Of a stretch of 24,560 nt of DNA, positions 1,257 through 10,700 are shown one piece after another; within the stretch, counting starts at the first letter, position 1; each line of letters opens with the position of its first letter. The DNA is taken from the IMG/VR virus record IMGVR_UViG_3300034520_000260, positions 1 to 24,560 of that record; one strand, given 5' to 3'. The notes beneath the pieces are model-generated. The model worked only from the letters and a program-made list of their open reading frames with translations. It had not been told where the DNA came from and did no database searches. Position numbers and translations under genes: made by a program. This DNA comes from a virus.

Positions 1257-1511
1257 TTAGAAGTACATCACGTTCCGTTTTTTCCCGTCTTTTTTCTGTT
1301 TTTTTCTTTCCTCCTTTACAAGGGAGGAGATGGCTTCGTTGAGGATGTCGAATGTTTCGTCTGGGTCTTTTGTTTCGATGCGTGGCTTGTCCTCTTTGGG
1401 GGTGTCTTTGGGGGTGAGCTCGGTGACTATGTCGAAGGCCCCGTAGGATTCTCTTAGATAGCGTTTCCCGTTTTTCATGTAGACTTCGACTTCAGGGACT
1501 CCTCTTCTCAT
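1257..1511 (-). CDS. Small charged early protein, unknown function
   Basis: The protein has 84 residues. The ATG overlaps the stop of the upstream gene as ATGA, so the two are translationally coupled. The N-terminal 35 residues look like a small beta sheet (VPEVEVYMKNGKRYL, then YGAFDIVTELTPK). The middle is a charged linker rich in Lys, Asp and Pro, and the C-terminus holds a helix (ETFDILNEAISSLVKEERKK) followed by a highly basic end (KKQKKDGKKRN). This suggests a nucleic-acid or partner-binding protein, but no family is recognised. It is the second gene of the early operon, directly after the histone-fold-like protein, and could be its partner. Confidence 0.75.
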   Translation of the reverse strand: MRRGVPEVEVYMKNGKRYLRESYGAFDIVTELTPKDTPKEDKPRIETKDPDETFDILNEAISSLVKEERKKQKKDGKKRNVMYF

Positions 1512-1966
1512 AATTCTTCACCCCATATCAGTTCCTTGTAGGCATCGTTGTACTTATCGATTAGGGGGTCATCGGTGTAGGATAGAACGTCGAGGTATGC
1601 GAGCCTCACAATCTCTGGGGTGATGATGACATCCCCCTCCCCTTTTTCACGGAGTGTTTTGATCTTGGCGAGGCTACCAGCCTCATCAAATAGCTGGTTG
1701 GCCAGGGCCTGGATCATGCTCTCTAACTCATACATTGCCTCAGGGGTTAGGATGGCCTTGTGGGGGTTCCTGATCCCCATGTGTTTCTCGTGGATTTGGG
1801 TTTCTAGGGCCTCGCGGGGGTTTTGTATTTTTACCCTGACCCCTGCGTGGTCCTTGTATGTTTGGAGGGCTTCTTCTACTTCTTCAGGATAACCCGTTTC
1901 ACGGGTTTCCTTGTATTTTATCCAGGCTTCAAGCCTACTACCAAGAACAATATCTCGTGTTTTCAT
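1508..1966 (-). CDS. Early protein with a histone-fold-like C-terminal half
   Basis: The protein has 152 residues from the ATG at 1966, which follows GGTGGTAAG; an ATG at 1981 would add five residues but covers this ribosome binding site. The N-terminal half is charged and unassigned. Counting from ATG 1966, residues from about 78 to 137 resemble histone-fold helices 2 and 3: LTPEAMYELESMIQALANQL, FDEAGSLAKI, an inserted loop, then VIITPEIVRLAYLDVL. The last stretch matches the end of archaeal histones (IKAEDIELA against ITPEIVRLA, five of nine identical) in the right order and at nearly the right distance. Helix 1 is not clear. If correct, it would bind DNA or pair with host histones, in chromatin-level control or genome compaction. 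It is the first gene of the early operon, behind a TATA-like stretch at 2001-2009. Confidence 0.6.
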   Translation of the reverse strand: MKTRDIVLGSRLEAWIKYKETRETGYPEEVEEALQTYKDHAGVRVKIQNPREALETQIHEKHMGIRNPHKAILTPEAMYELESMIQALANQLFDEAGSLAKIKTLREKGEGDVIITPEIVRLAYLDVLSYTDDPLIDKYNDAYKELIWGEEL

Positions 1967-1980
1967 CTTACCACCACACA
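1957..1980. repeat. 24-bp direct repeat, copy 1
   Basis: These 24 bases recur exactly at 2286-2309. Read on the minus strand they carry the GGTGGTAAG ribosome binding site and ATG AAA AC start of the first early gene. The copies lie 329 bp apart and flank the plus-strand RHH gene with its promoter region, as if that cassette had been inserted at, or had duplicated, the original start site. Confidence 0.95.
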
Positions 1981-1981
1981 T

Positions 1982-2080
1982 AATTTTATAGATAATATAG
2001 TATATATATTTTTTGGTATATTGGTGTAGTGGTTAAATATTATAAATATTTTTAAGCTATGCTCCGAAAAAATAGAAACC
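1982..2080. promoter_or_regulatory. Divergent promoter region, early operon and RHH repressor
   Basis: This is a very AT-rich 99-bp gap between divergent genes. On the minus strand a TATA-like run (about 2001-2009) sits some 35-40 nt before the ATG at 1966 and would place transcription start near 1980. On the plus strand TATAAAT at 2041-2047 sits about 35 nt before the ATG at 2081, giving a short leader. Overlapping divergent archaeal promoters are well placed for repression by the RHH product. Start sites are inferred from the usual spacing of about 25 nt between TATA box and transcription start. Confidence 0.6.
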
Positions 2081-2254
2081 ATGAAAAGTGAAAAGGTCAA
2101 CACAAGTGTCAATATCGATGCAAAAAAGTTCAAACTCTTCAAAGTCATCGCAATGCTAAAATTCGAGAAAACGCCAATTACCTCCGCATGGGAAGAAGCT
2201 ATTGATTTGTTTATCGAAAAAAATAAAGAATATCTTGACGAAATTAAAGAATAG
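2081..2254 (+). CDS. Ribbon-helix-helix repressor candidate, divergent from early operon
   Basis: This 57-residue gene is on the plus strand, opposite the early operon. It begins MKSEKVNTSVNIDAKKFKLF: residues 6-12 (VNTSVNI) are the predicted beta strand, followed by helix 1 (AKKFKLFKVIAMLKF), the turn (EKTPITSAW) and helix 2 (EEAIDLFIEKNKEYL), the RHH pattern. It starts at the ATG at 2081, 35 nt after a TATA box. There is no clear ribosome binding site, as expected for a short-leader archaeal transcript. A small DNA-binding gene facing the early operon across a shared promoter, next to the integrase, fits a lysogeny repressor or switch protein. The whole gene is enclosed by a 24-bp direct repeat and is crossed by a possible antisense promoter. 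The repressor role is inferred from position. Confidence 0.8.
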   Translation: MKSEKVNTSVNIDAKKFKLFKVIAMLKFEKTPITSAWEEAIDLFIEKNKEYLDEIKE

Positions 2255-2285: not shown

Positions 2286-2309
2286 GTGTTTTCATCTTAC
2301 CACCACACA
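2286..2309. repeat. 24-bp direct repeat, copy 2
   Basis: This is the second exact copy of the 24-bp element at 1957-1980. It lies just beyond the 3' end of the RHH gene. On the minus strand it again offers a ribosome binding site and an ATG (2295-2293), with a TATA-like TTATATATA about 25-30 nt upstream (2325-2333). The frame that follows runs antisense to the RHH gene and does not look like a protein. Confidence 0.95.
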
Positions 2310-3954: not shown

Positions 3955-4719
3955 TTAGTCATGTTTGGGGGAGACTATGCCCCATCCCAGATGTTTAAGT
4001 CCATTTAAGCAACAAGGTTTCCCTAATGGTCTTCCCGTCTTTGTTGCAGATACGTAATCCCATATGACCCAATCTTTTAATTCAAAACCTTTGACATTTA
4101 GAAGGTAGTGGCCGTACCATTTCCCGTCGTTACACTTCACCCGAACATGTTCGATTTTCACCTCGTAGCCCATCTCCTCGAGGACCTTGCTGAAGAGTTG
4201 GCAGGCGTCAGTACAGTTTATCCCGCTTGTTGTCATTCTCATGACTGCAACATGATTAGGGACCTGATCATTATAGTAATATTTATACTTGCAGGTCTTT
4301 TTCACCTGTTCATAGAGGCTCGTTGCATCATGAAAAGTACCTATCTTTTCGATGACTTTAGTTGTCCAAGGCCCTTTTAAAGATGACTGAGGTTGAATGC
4401 TGATATAATTAGGGTCACGGCCATTACTCCTCACAAAATCCTTGTAGCGCCTTAACATATCCTTGAATGTTCCTAAAGAAACATGGTCACTTTTACCTTG
4501 TTCAAGGTATATTATATTGGGTTCACGACCTTCCTTTTTCACAAAATCCTCGTAGCGCCTTAACATATCCTTGAATGTTCCTAAAGAAACATGGTCACTT
4601 TTACCTTGTTCAAGGTATATTATATTGGGTTCACGACCTTCCTTTTTCACAAAATCCTCGTAGCGCCTTAGCATATTCCTAAACTTCTTTATCTCAATCT
4701 TACCATTTTTAAGAGGCAT
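3955..4719 (-). CDS. peiW: Pseudomurein endoisopeptidase (PeiW/PeiP family lysis enzyme)
   Basis: The 254-residue enzyme is predicted to cut the peptide cross-links of pseudomurein and so lyse the host. Residues 10-108 hold three pseudomurein-binding repeats (FKDMLRRYEDFVKKEGREPN type) that anchor it to the wall. The C-terminal half is a transglutaminase-like C71 peptidase with the expected triad Cys169 (GINCTDAC), His204 (WYGHYLL) and Asp221 (VIWDY). There is no signal peptide, so release through holin lesions fits (candidates at 22079-22607). The first two repeats are an exact 108-bp tandem duplication in DNA. Known relatives are the endopeptidases of Methanothermobacter virus psiM2 and its defective relative psiM100. 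It is the last gene of the late operon. The family is certain from the repeats and triad; the symbol is by analogy. Confidence 0.93.
   Translation of the reverse strand: MPLKNGKIEIKKFRNMLRRYEDFVKKEGREPNIIYLEQGKSDHVSLGTFKDMLRRYEDFVKKEGREPNIIYLEQGKSDHVSLGTFKDMLRRYKDFVRSNGRDPNYISIQPQSSLKGPWTTKVIEKIGTFHDATSLYEQVKKTCKYKYYYNDQVPNHVAVMRMTTSGINCTDACQLFSKVLEEMGYEVKIEHVRVKCNDGKWYGHYLLNVKGFELKDWVIWDYVSATKTGRPLGKPCCLNGLKHLGWGIVSPKHD
4444..4659. repeat. Two exact 108-bp tandem copies in peiW
   Basis: Bases 4444-4551 and 4552-4659 are identical, and a third, diverged unit follows. 108 bp is exactly 36 codons, so the reading frame is kept and one pseudomurein-binding repeat has been copied. Complete identity, silent positions included, points to a very recent duplication or gene conversion. 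Confidence 0.95.
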
Positions 4720-5488: not shown

Positions 5489-7369
5489 TCACTCCTTTCT
5501 ACCATATATCCAACCTTCCTTCGGCTGGAGATTTCCGCCCTTACCATATAATACACCAAACCCGCGAACTTCAACAAGATGACCTGAATCTGTATTGCTT
5601 GCTGTTATCTGAGTTATGGCCCCCTGACTATCGAATGAGATCCTGACTGCTGTGATTAGGAAATCCTCACCATAAATCGGATCGGTAAAGACACACCCTG
5701 GCTCTAAGCCAATCCACCCACTAAACTCGGCATTCATGCTCATGACGGGTTTTGTTACTTTTTTATGTGACTCCATAAGTGTGTCCGTGTCAACATCTCC
5801 TCCTGCGGGGATCTCCATAACAATTCTCCCCAGACCTGGATGCATATCCCCATTACCTAATTCCCATCCGTTAATGCTCTCCAAATCTTCATATTCTCTT
5901 TCAAGGTATGTTCCTCCAGCATCCCACTGACGATAATACTTCAAATGGTTGATAACGCCCGCAGAGTCCTCTTCATATTCTAATGAAATCGTGGGGAATC
6001 CATTAATGTCAACAGTGTCATGTCCATTAGTATTCCTGATAAGCACTTTTCCCTCATACATTGTTGCAACCCACCCCCCTAAAGATAGAATAGAGTCAAA
6101 TTGTTCCTTTGCATTCCCATTCACATACTCCCTGTAGGGCCATCCTGGGATTTGTATTGATGAGGGGTGAACTTCAAGGCCACATCTGGCAAGGATGGCT
6201 CTCAGGTTGTTGTAGTTCTCAAGGCCACTGTAGACTCCTATACCATCCCATTCCCTGTAGTTCAAGCCAACAGACCGGTTGAGGATTTCCTCTAATGAGG
6301 GTGGTTCTGAACGGAGCACCACAGTACACCCTTTGCTCGTATAGTTCCTTGAAACATAGGTGATTTTATCCTCATAGATCATACCTGCTTCTGTTTCGAC
6401 CCGCAATGTTTGCCCAGTGTAAGCTTTAATATTTAAGCTCGTCGCTTCCACGGAAATATTATTGATTGTCTTATTAATCTTCAATCTTTTGACGGGGATC
6501 TTTTGATTATCAATGTACACGCTTAAATTCGAAATATTAGTTGTTTCCGGTTTTAGGGAATTCACGAAGCCCCTCAGAAGGATGTGATCCGTGTAATATG
6601 ATCCATTCCACTCCCAATCCCCCATTTCAATAGAGATCTCTGCTTCTGGGGATATTGTGCTAAAGGGTCTATCCCATAATTTATACCCCGCCACGCATTC
6701 TATAGTATTCGTGCCCTCAGCAATGTCAGTGAGTACTTTAAATGTGACTATATCCCCCTCAACGCCTTCAAGTGACCTGTCTTCAGCGATATTCCCATTC
6801 ACATAAAATTCAAAATCACGATAGTCCACACGAAAACTGTCTGTGAGAATGGGGAGTGTAACCTCTAAAACAACACCCTCATCATCCGCATCTGATTCAT
6901 ATTCAGACACAGCACGATAAGTCCAATCCTCTGAAGCAATAGGTGTTCTCTCAGGTCCATCATGTCTAAGATACGCCCGTATTCCCACATAGATTGGTCC
7001 TGGGGGCAGATTCCTTGGGGTAAACTTAAACGGAACATCCCTACATTCATTTGTTTGTAAAGGAATGAAACCTGATGGTGAAATATTCAGTGATGTCCCC
7101 GGATTTGTCTCGGGATATCCATATAGGCTATCAAAGCAATTAAGCGCATTATCATGACTTATATACATATTTGGGGGTCTAAAGGGTTCGCTGAATATGA
7201 TCAGAATATCCTCCTCTGGGTTTGACGGGTGAGGCTCCCCATAGTTCTTAAATGACACCTTGCTCTCAAAGCTAACTCCATTATACCATGGATTGTTATA
7301 TATAATGCAGAATCCAGTGCTCTGATTACAGGCATTTAAGAATTTATAATTATACGCCATCCTCATCAC
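5489..7369 (-). CDS. Tail-tip / baseplate hub protein
   Basis: The 626-residue protein follows the Dit-like gene with overlapping stop and start codons. The start could be the GTG at 7369, the ATG at 7366 or the ATG at 7360. The N-terminal 250 residues are beta-sandwich-like and aromatic-rich. Residues from about 330 to 450 (YREWDGIGVYSGLENYNNLR, then SILSLGGWVATMYEGKVLIRN) resemble the central part of siphovirus tail hub proteins. The C-terminal region (GWIGLEPGCVFTDPIYGEDF, LITAVRISFDSQGAITQIT) is typical of the hub beta domain that closes the tail tube. It would cap the tail and connect the tape measure to the fibre. No peptidase motif was recognised. The assignment rests on gene order and pattern, not on catalytic residues. 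Confidence 0.65.
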   Translation of the reverse strand: MMRMAYNYKFLNACNQSTGFCIIYNNPWYNGVSFESKVSFKNYGEPHPSNPEEDILIIFSEPFRPPNMYISHDNALNCFDSLYGYPETNPGTSLNISPSGFIPLQTNECRDVPFKFTPRNLPPGPIYVGIRAYLRHDGPERTPIASEDWTYRAVSEYESDADDEGVVLEVTLPILTDSFRVDYRDFEFYVNGNIAEDRSLEGVEGDIVTFKVLTDIAEGTNTIECVAGYKLWDRPFSTISPEAEISIEMGDWEWNGSYYTDHILLRGFVNSLKPETTNISNLSVYIDNQKIPVKRLKINKTINNISVEATSLNIKAYTGQTLRVETEAGMIYEDKITYVSRNYTSKGCTVVLRSEPPSLEEILNRSVGLNYREWDGIGVYSGLENYNNLRAILARCGLEVHPSSIQIPGWPYREYVNGNAKEQFDSILSLGGWVATMYEGKVLIRNTNGHDTVDINGFPTISLEYEEDSAGVINHLKYYRQWDAGGTYLEREYEDLESINGWELGNGDMHPGLGRIVMEIPAGGDVDTDTLMESHKKVTKPVMSMNAEFSGWIGLEPGCVFTDPIYGEDFLITAVRISFDSQGAITQITASNTDSGHLVEVRGFGVLYGKGGNLQPKEGWIYGRKE

Positions 7370-7776
7370 TCAAAATATTCCCCATCAAAATAATCATAAT
7401 CGAAGTACATACCATCCACTATTTCCAGGAATGATGGTGGGGCCTCCACTAAGGCGGTTACACTAACCACAATAACAGGATAATGATCCAAATTGTATTG
7501 TGGCTTAAGAATAACTCCAGTCCATTCTCTTATACCATCTGTGATGGTCACAGTCTCTCCACCGGTAAATGTGACCTTCGTTTTCCCATCAATTAATCTG
7601 TGAACCTCACCATCCGCAACGGCCATATCGGATATTGCCTTAACTTGCATGAGGAGATCTTTATATTCATCAGATTCCGCATGAACAACGAGTGTGAATA
7701 CAAGACTATCCCAGTTTTCAGTAACTTGCGAAACAAGTAATTCCTGATTATTGATTTTCCAGGACACATCGATCAT
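7366..7776 (-). CDS. Distal tail (Dit-like) protein
   Basis: The protein has 136 residues, almost all beta strands (IDVSWKINNQELLVSQVTEN, KTKVTFTGGETVTITDG, YPVIVVSVTALVEAPPSF). The ATG at 7776 has GGTGATCT upstream. It is directly downstream of the tape measure and upstream of the hub protein, the standard position of Dit or gpL-like tail-tip proteins in siphoviruses. It is shorter than the classic 250-residue Dit, so it may be only the ring-forming N-terminal domain. The C-terminus is acidic and aromatic-rich (MYFDYDYFDGEYFE). There is an 8-bp gap after the tape measure and coupling to the next gene. Function is inferred from order and all-beta composition. Confidence 0.55.
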   Translation of the reverse strand: MIDVSWKINNQELLVSQVTENWDSLVFTLVVHAESDEYKDLLMQVKAISDMAVADGEVHRLIDGKTKVTFTGGETVTITDGIREWTGVILKPQYNLDHYPVIVVSVTALVEAPPSFLEIVDGMYFDYDYFDGEYFE

Positions 7777-7784
7777 TAGATCAC

Positions 7785-10700
7785 CTAACCAGAGAATATT
7801 GTTCTCCTCTGAACTCCTTCTGCGATGAGGTAAGGATTCTTCCCGTTTCGCCTCATCTCCTGGAATATCTTATTATTAATTCTCGTGGAGATTTTCTCTG
7901 CCATTTCTTCAAGGTCAATATCAGATTCCACTTTATCCACGTATACATGGGTTTGAATCTGGAGATTCACATCCTGAGAATAAAGACCTCCTCTCGCCCT
8001 ACTTTCTGAACTTAACTGAGAAGGCAGAAATTGGGGAGATCCTATACTTGAGATTGTATTGGGGATTGTCGCTGCCAGGCCCTCATTAAAATGTCTCCCA
8101 AGAAGATAACCATACTCCCTCATCACATCATATGTTAATGAGGATAGAGGACCCTCTTTTGGTGGTGATGATGGTAACAACCTTCTTATGATGCTAAGAA
8201 CACTGTTTAGGTTAGGAATCGCTGAACGGATTCCTGCTGCAAGGTTAGATATGAAACGTGACCCCCAAATCCTGAATTGGGCCGCGATGCCTGAGAAATC
8301 GGGTAATGGTAACTTGGGCCACTTGAAACCACTGAATCTTGATTTTATCCATGATGTGAAGGAGGACCAGACCTTGCTGATCAACGATACGAGGTTAGGC
8401 ATGGATGGGCTAGGTAATTTAGGCCACTTAAACTTGGGGACATGTTCCTTAACCCACGCAAGAAACTTATTCCATGCTTGTTGAATCAGCGCCACAAGGT
8501 TAGGCATGGAAATATTGGGGACTTTTGGCCATTTGAAAGTGGGAATATGTTCCTTAACCCATCCTGTGAATTTGTTCCACATCTCCTGCAGAGCCGTTAC
8601 AGGATTAGGAAGAGGAAGTTTAGGTAGTTGTGGCCATTTAAATGTTGGTATGCGGGTCATGACCCACACTTTGAAGTCATTCCATACTTGCCCAAAGCCT
8701 TCGATGATGTACTTTCCGGGGTCCCTAAATAATTTTGAAAGTTCCTCACGGATAGGATCCTCAATGTAGGTCTTGATATTCTGCATCAGCGCTTCCTTTA
8801 GTTTGCTCCACTTTTCAGGGCCATAGATCCCCTCAAAAAGTTTTTCAGGGGAAAACATGTTTTTAATGGAATCAGGAAGTAATGAAAGAGGTGTCGGCCC
8901 GAATAAGGATGTTGGATCAGAGAGTGCTCTGTTTAGGTATTCCCTAAAGTTTGCGAGTATATCTACACTTAAAAGAGCGACACCAACTCCTTCACCGATA
9001 CCCCTTATAAGCAAGGATCCTATACGGGAACCTAACTTTGGGATACTAACCCTTGCAGCGTCATCAACACTCCCTGTAAATCTCTCCAGGAGGGTCCTTG
9101 CAGCGTCATCAACCTGACTCTTACCTATGCCGAAATCTAATTTGGGGAGCTTTAATTCCACAGGAATCTTAATTTTAGGTATTAAACGGCCTGTCTCATC
9201 ACCAAGGATCCTCTTAATCGTGTCAATAAACCCCTTAATGATATCCTTTGCTTTGCCCGCCGCCTTATCAAATCCTTCAGATAATGTATCTATGAGGCGG
9301 CGTGACAGTTCCTCAGGCAACCTTCCCTTCAATTCATCGAATCCGTCGGACAATAGCCTCCTGATAGCCCCAGTGACACGTGGGATGAGTCTCTTTAAGC
9401 CTTCGGCAAGGTACTCAGCGGCTTTTGTGAATACCCCAACAAGCAGTGCTTCTCCGATTGGGCCCATGTCACCGAAAAAATCGTTCAACCATATCACGAA
9501 CTGATCCAGATAGTACCTTATCCATCCTAATATATCCCTATGTTTTTCCGCTGATTTACCGAGCGCTTTGTTCATCCTCTCAGATTCCTCTTCAGTTACC
9601 TTACCCGTGGTTTTCCAGTTACTTGCCACCTGTGCCAGCGCTGGCCCCACCGATTCACCAAAAACCTCAGTGGCCACCCTAACACGTTCCTGCTGATCAG
9701 GAATCTGAGAAAGAACCTCTATAAAATCAAAAAGCACATCACGGAATGGTCTGATATTACCATGAGCGTCTTTCACAGCCACGCCAAACTTTTCAAGTTT
9801 ATCACCGTATTCCTGGACACCCGTACCACCCCTCTCCCATTCCCTTGAGATTTCAGTTAACTCTTTAGCGAATGGTCTCAGAAGTCGTGTGCCAACAGGG
9901 CCTACTGATGCAATTATCCTGGCTGTATCCTCCACACTCAAACCTGCCTGCCTGAAAAAATACCCAAGGCGATCAACGGTATCAATGAACTGTGTGAATG
10001 ATGGGTAACCTGAGACCCTCCATAACCCAAGGAGCAGGTTCACTGTATCTGTTGAGTCTTGTACACTGACATTGAAGTCCCTAAAGACCCTTGCAAGTGC
10101 AAGTGTCACCGTGGATGCATCCTCCCCACTCCTTTTAACCCCAAGAAGGGCTGCTTTAAAGTAACCCATAGTCAGGTTCACATCATTGGTATAAGCTGCA
10201 AGTGTGTACATCACTGACGCTGTTCCCTTCATCCCTAGTGAGTAGACATAGTTTTCACGGATTAGATCCTCCATGGCTTCTCTCTGACTTTGAGTTGCAT
10301 TTGTGAGGATTGCTGACTGCTCAATTATCTTATTATAATCTAGGAGTTCGAGTGTTTTATTATATGATAAGAATCCCGCCGTTAAGCCAGCAACCTTCGA
10401 TGTTAAACCATCAACAGCTCCGGTGAATGTGTTTGTTGTTTCTGCAGCTGTTTCAATTGATTCCGTATCCACATTAACCGTAGCATCATATGTGGTCCCA
10501 TCGATCTCCTCAAGTTTAGCCTTAAGGTCTTCCACCTCCCCTTCATTAACTTCAGCGTTCACTGTGGTTGTGACTTCATCAGGGGTATTCCCTAGGAGGT
10601 CATGGAGTCTTTCAATAATTTCTGTAGCGTTATCCTCTACGTTCAAGGAGATATCCACGGTGGATGGGAGTTCGTCAAGGATGTTTTTCAGGTTTGTAAG

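Follow-up and report, generated by a model that had tools for sequence, protein, structure and literature searches.

ORF31 of psiM-type Methanothermobacter viruses: a divergent, acidic protein with a probable histone-fold-like C-terminal domain

Introduction

In a virus record related to the Methanothermobacter siphovirus psiM2, the gene that opens the leftward cluster encodes a homologue of psiM2 ORF31. Its sequence is best read as containing a histone-fold-like domain at the C-terminus, supported by profile comparisons over histone helices alpha2 and alpha3. We lean towards the view that a histone is either the ancestor or the structural counterpart of this domain. As no curated histone model of Pfam or NCBIfam reaches its cut-off with ORF31, the homology is likely rather than shown, and the protein is not classed as a histone but named a divergent, acidic, histone-fold-like protein.

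The analysed stretch of DNA, referred to as the window, comprises 24,560 bases, forms a virus record of its own, and is closely related to psiM2 (Leisingerviridae). In its first 12 kb, 44% matches psiM2 at 92%, its integrase is identical to psiM2 ORF29, and a pseudomurein endoisopeptidase is encoded as well.

Results and Discussion

The ORF31 family

The gene had been placed at the correct coordinates by the initial annotation, and its strand is minus. It runs from an ATG at position 1966 to a stop at 1508 and encodes 152 amino acids (Table 1). The start codon is supported by the relatives L008–L010, since ORF31 begins with MKTRDIV in these records. Homologues in other methanogen viruses, proposed as a check by the initial annotation, were found in psiM2 (AAC27070.1, 80%) and psiM100 (AAG39944.1, 37%), both orthologues of the window protein and both annotated as unknown. 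The window protein also matches PHROG 37053, a family of unknown function, with an E value of 9e-69 over residues 5–151, and shares with it end-to-end similarity as well as the conserved gene position. Pairwise dN/dS values of 0.15–0.39 within the family, with distant pairs near saturation, indicate a genuine protein-coding gene under purifying selection.

The family is small and of low diversity. The search of viral contigs returned five IMG/VR records with ORF31 relatives, psiM2 itself among them, and no viral contig was matched when psiM100 ORF31 served as the query. Neither the ORF31 nor the integrase profile matched any genome contig, and no significant ORF31 relative was detected in plasmids. 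In L010 (1852–2319), ORF31 carries a five-residue insertion after putative alpha3 that resembles a tandem duplication (YIITS).

Table 1. Coordinates of ORF31, its predicted parts and the neighbouring features in the window.
Feature	Position	Strand	Basis
ORF31 homologue, acidic, with histone-fold-like C-terminal domain	1508..1966	−	ORF and homologues; dN/dS 0.15–0.39
N-terminal helical hairpin (predicted), residues 9–39	1850..1942	−	AlphaFold2, block pLDDT 61–74; sole moderately confident part
Histone-fold-like domain (probable), approximately residues 43–130	1577..1840	−	histone profile matches
Putative alpha1, residues 50–63	1778..1819	−	predicted helix; weak alignment with histone alpha1
Putative alpha2, residues 75–95, kink at invariant G97, helix 99–107	1646..1744	−	predicted helices; aligned with histone alpha2
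Putative alpha3, residues 117–128 (ITPEIVRLA region)	1583..1618	−	predicted helix; aligned with histone alpha3
Extra C-terminal helix (predicted), residues 134–148	1523..1567	−	predicted helix
Divergent 57-aa gene, candidate viral regulator	2081..2254	+	frame conserved in psiM2 and psiM100, on the strand opposite annotated ORF30
Divergent promoter region with TATA-like tract 2001–2017 for ORF31	1967..2080	.	sequence
24-bp direct repeat, copy 1, covering the ORF31 start codon	1957..1980	.	
24-bp direct repeat, copy 2	2286..2309	.	

Profile comparison with histones

The similarity was quantified with hhalign. The ORF31 family profile aligned with eight histones at P 0.004 and with a pooled 15-sequence histone profile at P 1.4e-4 and a score of 29.3, the latter template being approximate in several of its members, some of them read off PDB alignments. 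A histone H3 fragment, picked for matching psiM100, was taken out of this template ahead of the final statistics. The aligned span covers alpha2 and alpha3 with an insertion of eight residues in between: on the window side, IRNPHKA-ILTPEAMYELESMIQALANQLFDEAGSLA is followed by the insertion and then by EGDVIITPEIVRLA, and the HMfB side consists of IKDAGAERVSDDARITLAKILEEMGRDIASEAIKLA and HAGRKTIKAEDIELA. Within alpha2, the matched positions of ORF31 and HMfB are A77/A24, L88/M35, A89/G36, A96/A43, and A100/A47. The alignment of the C-terminal half with histone helices 2 and 3, proposed in the initial annotation together with the intervening insertion, was therefore borne out by this comparison and its controls, and so was the pairing of the ITPEIVRLA region with histone alpha3.

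Several controls place this similarity, which lies in the register of the histone helices, beyond chance over alpha2–alpha3. A set of 205 ORF families of the same viruses and their relatives was scored against the 15-histone profile; ORF31 ranked first, and the best of the other 204 scored 21.6. A score of 29.3 was reached by none of 600 column shuffles (maximum 19.5, Gumbel p 9e-6) and by none of 600 block shuffles in which helix-sized pieces were kept whole (maximum 28.3, Gumbel p 0.001), with these p values being partly dependent, as a histone had been proposed after viewing the same sequence. The reversed alignment scored 19.4, and all seven ORF31 homologues fell into a common register against the pooled histone profile.

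Database searches and structure prediction

Untargeted searches pointed in the same direction at scores below significance. The psiM100 domain had a single match among 18,950 NCBIfam models, namely the archaeal histone NF043032 (E 0.043), and this match was confined to the psiM100 member and scored 14.2 bits against a cut-off of 50. Histone H3 aligned with psiM100 ORF31 over alpha1-L1-alpha2 in a common register at E 0.73. A Pfam scan of ORF31 returned no histone family, and the psiM records gave no match to PF00808. In the PDB (177,635 sequences), the top match of the domain profile was the viral histone doublet 9cvt (miniH2B-H2A) with an E value of 0.099, which is insignificant on its own; a PDB histone doublet also ranked first with the full-length profile (E 0.34). 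Both histone folds of 9cvt match one stretch of the domain profile, in the alpha2 region. The doublets differ from ORF31 in carrying two histone folds per chain and belong to an unrelated group of viruses.

Three other candidates were rejected. A cytochrome P450 was the best single-sequence PDB match of the window protein (E approximately 0.003) and was judged spurious, being found with one homologue only; with the family profile, the match dropped to E 0.48–0.84. The best single-sequence PDB match of psiM100, GatB (E approximately 0.003), was likewise limited to one homologue and split into weak pieces. The Pfam match to Tox-ODYAM1 (E 0.001) stayed below the cut-off of that family and was dismissed as spurious, too.

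The structure prediction suggested in the initial annotation was run twice with AlphaFold2, for the full-length protein and for residues 41–152, each time with six homologues and psiM100 left out. The order of the predicted helices (50–63, 75–95 plus 99–107, 117–125) fits a histone fold followed by one extra helix (134–148). The mean pLDDT was 44 and 42, respectively, which makes the tertiary models unusable as evidence for or against a histone fold, and a Foldseek search with these low-confidence models returned noise and no histone. The low confidence is probably due to the shallow sequence depth.

A reading that competes directly with a histone fold is that of another all-helical protein with an amphipathic central helix that scores against histones by chance, which we consider less likely than not. 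It would account for the sub-threshold family scores and the low-confidence models, and the histone match is indeed carried mainly by alpha2, an amphipathic helix, with alpha1 aligning weakly. The invariant G97 breaks alpha2, the eight-residue insertion comes after it, the family is small and low in diversity, and the block-shuffle p is only 0.001. Against chance scoring, histones top two untargeted searches in register, and no decoy family or shuffle attains the ORF31 score.

Gene order and regulatory region

In agreement with its earlier designation as the first gene, ORF31 heads the leftward cluster not only in the window but also in psiM2, psiM100, and the relatives from IMG/VR. In the window, psiM2, and psiM100 it adjoins the integrase and a divergent gene. 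Early expression, which was part of the same designation, is plausible on the basis of gene order. The TATA-like tract upstream of ORF31 would start its transcripts near the start codon, and the divergent promoter region is conserved with psiM100 and differs in psiM2.

The divergent gene for a protein of 57 aa lies back to back with ORF31 in all relatives examined. The plus-strand frame is likely the real gene, since pS is saturated (0.8–1.05) while pN is low (0.17–0.24). The annotated ORF30 of psiM2 (L001, 5547–5921) and psiM100 (L002, 3002–3304) resembles an antisense artefact, and its opposite strand encodes a conserved protein of 57–59 aa under strong purifying selection. The N-terminal part of this protein differs by virus type, and the C-terminal part is nearly constant. 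By eye, the 57-aa protein looks like a candidate ribbon-helix-helix regulator, a resemblance for which database searches gave no support.

A block at approximately 1920–2350 of the window, which spans the 57-aa gene, the two promoters, and the initial codons of ORF31, is 100% identical to L008 and unlike psiM2, and both of its flanks match psiM2. Judged by this pattern, the block has the appearance of a regulatory or immunity cassette that was exchanged. A perfect 24-bp direct repeat lies near its edges; it is present in L008–L010 and was not found in psiM2, psiM100, or L007.

This arrangement bears on the main rival explanation, to which we would likewise assign a minor share of the probability: ORF31 could be an early regulator that acts through protein–protein contact instead of histone pairing, regardless of whether the histone likeness is real. 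It might, for example, bind and inactivate the divergent 57-aa product as an anti-repressor, or act on basal transcription in the manner of the histone-fold factors NC2 or NF-Y. Such a role would suit an acidic protein whose gene leads its cluster and is separated by a single promoter region from the divergent gene of a small, conserved candidate regulator, and the 5′ end of ORF31 moves together with this candidate in the swapped cassette. The cassette boundary, however, lies inside ORF31, which leaves the greater part of the protein outside the segment inherited along with the 57-aa protein, itself only a candidate regulator, and ORF31 matches no known anti-repressor or factor family.

Charge and DNA-contact residues

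Returning to the histone-fold-like reading, we consider charge and the residues with which histones hold DNA. In every homologue, the net charge of the C-terminal domain lies between −5 and −10, compared to +0.6 to +2.6 for HMfA/HMfB, and the whole protein has a pI of 4.8–5.2 and a net charge of −7 to −14. In histones, the arginine of loop L2 is held by an aspartate of alpha3 in the so-called R-D clamp, and L1 carries an RV and L2 an RKT motif (PMC13260811). These traits of archaeal nucleosomal histones, along with the basic DNA-binding character, are not shared by ORF31. The arginine of the RKT motif corresponds to D112, which is invariant in the family, the clamp aspartate to I119 or, in psiM100, to H, and the histone DNA-contact positions 19, 53, and 54 are not conserved in the window protein. 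Only psiM100 retains the minor-groove arginine of L1; it also has the threonine of L2 and an N-terminal hairpin that is basic. The equivalent of the capstone residue, HMfB position 49, is ambiguous because of the eight-residue insertion: with one placement of the insertion it is I102, with another G109.

As ORF31 is acidic and has lost both the RKT motif and the R-D clamp, it is very improbable that the protein acts as a histone on viral DNA by coating, bending, or bridging it, in spite of the histone-like profile and the residues retained in psiM100, and the coating of viral DNA considered in the initial annotation is thereby disfavoured.

Possible function of ORF31

Methanobacteriales package their DNA with histones, and poisoning of the host chromatin, the other function considered at the outset, would be a possible role of ORF31. 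The architecture of ORF31 would comprise an N-terminal helical hairpin, the probable histone-fold-like domain, and the extra C-terminal helix. The protein would be made early in infection or induction, and its domain may pair with a helical partner through the histone handshake surface, with the host histones as the favoured partners. Since ORF31 is acidic and lacks the DNA-contact residues, a mixed dimer of ORF31 and a host histone would bind DNA poorly and could keep hypernucleosomes from growing further on the DNA of the virus or the host. This mechanism is modelled on the archaeal capstone histones of Methanobacteriales, which were proposed to block hypernucleosome growth (PMC7776873).

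The whole statement, i.e., a histone-fold-like domain that is made early, pairs with host histones, and blocks hypernucleosome growth, is tentative and has the odds against it. Still more doubtful is the stronger version of a non-DNA-binding viral histone mimic that is made at the start of infection and caps or dismantles host hypernucleosomes as a dominant-negative anti-chromatin protein.

Comparison with known histones

With HMfA/HMfB (NF043032, PF00808), ORF31 shares the pattern and register of alpha2 and alpha3. In contrast to these histones, it is twice as long and acidic, carries an eight-residue insertion before alpha3, an N-terminal hairpin, and an extra C-terminal helix, and is devoid of the RKT motif and the R-D clamp. 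The capstone histones of Methanosphaera and Methanobrevibacter come from the host order of the psiM viruses, but are chromosomal archaeal histones, unlike ORF31, and serve solely as a model for the mechanism (PMC7776873). Schwab et al. 2024 proposed, from metagenomes, histone-fold proteins with an extra helical domain in tailed prokaryote viruses (PMC11390915). In these phage histones, the fold is N-terminal, its alpha3 is truncated, and a tetramerisation helix lies at the C-terminus, whereas the histone-like part of ORF31 is C-terminal; ORF31 does not have the phage-histone architecture and is set apart from it by description only (PMC11390915).

No canonical histone was retrieved by a tblastn search with HMfB against 50,697 phage records or by scanning viral contigs for short patterns. 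In the literature searched, we found neither a histone link for psiM ORF31 nor a report on how tailed Methanobacteriales viruses handle host chromatin. Histone-fold proteins do occur in giant viruses. If the fold is true, an acidic histone-like domain at the C-terminus would be new for cultivated methanogen viruses. Should ORF31 be a histone-fold partner that is unable to hold DNA, it would lend itself as a natural tool for probing how archaeal chromatin is assembled and, if the proposed mechanism is true, represent a viral counterpart of the capstone histones. As the gene is also present in a cultivated virus (psiM1/psiM2) and encodes one small protein, this is cheap to test.

Additional observations in the window and its relatives

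Some observations concern other genes. Part of the pseudomurein-binding repeats of the pseudomurein endoisopeptidase (window 3955–4719) is duplicated in tandem (FKDMLRRYEDFVKKEGREPNIIYLEQGKSDHVSLGT region). In the window at 835–1098 and 486–638, an 87-aa ORF resembles a fusion that arose through a deletion: towards its end it matches phrog_28379, a gene that is intact in L008, in no more than the last 30 positions. The SWIM zinc-finger gene of L008 appears to be missing from the window. Finally, the early region of L010 contains, at 6009–8376, an insertion of three genes (207, 184, and 403 aa) that the window lacks. With no Pfam match for the 207- and 184-aa genes and no PHROG match for the 403-aa gene, these may possibly represent cargo or defence genes.
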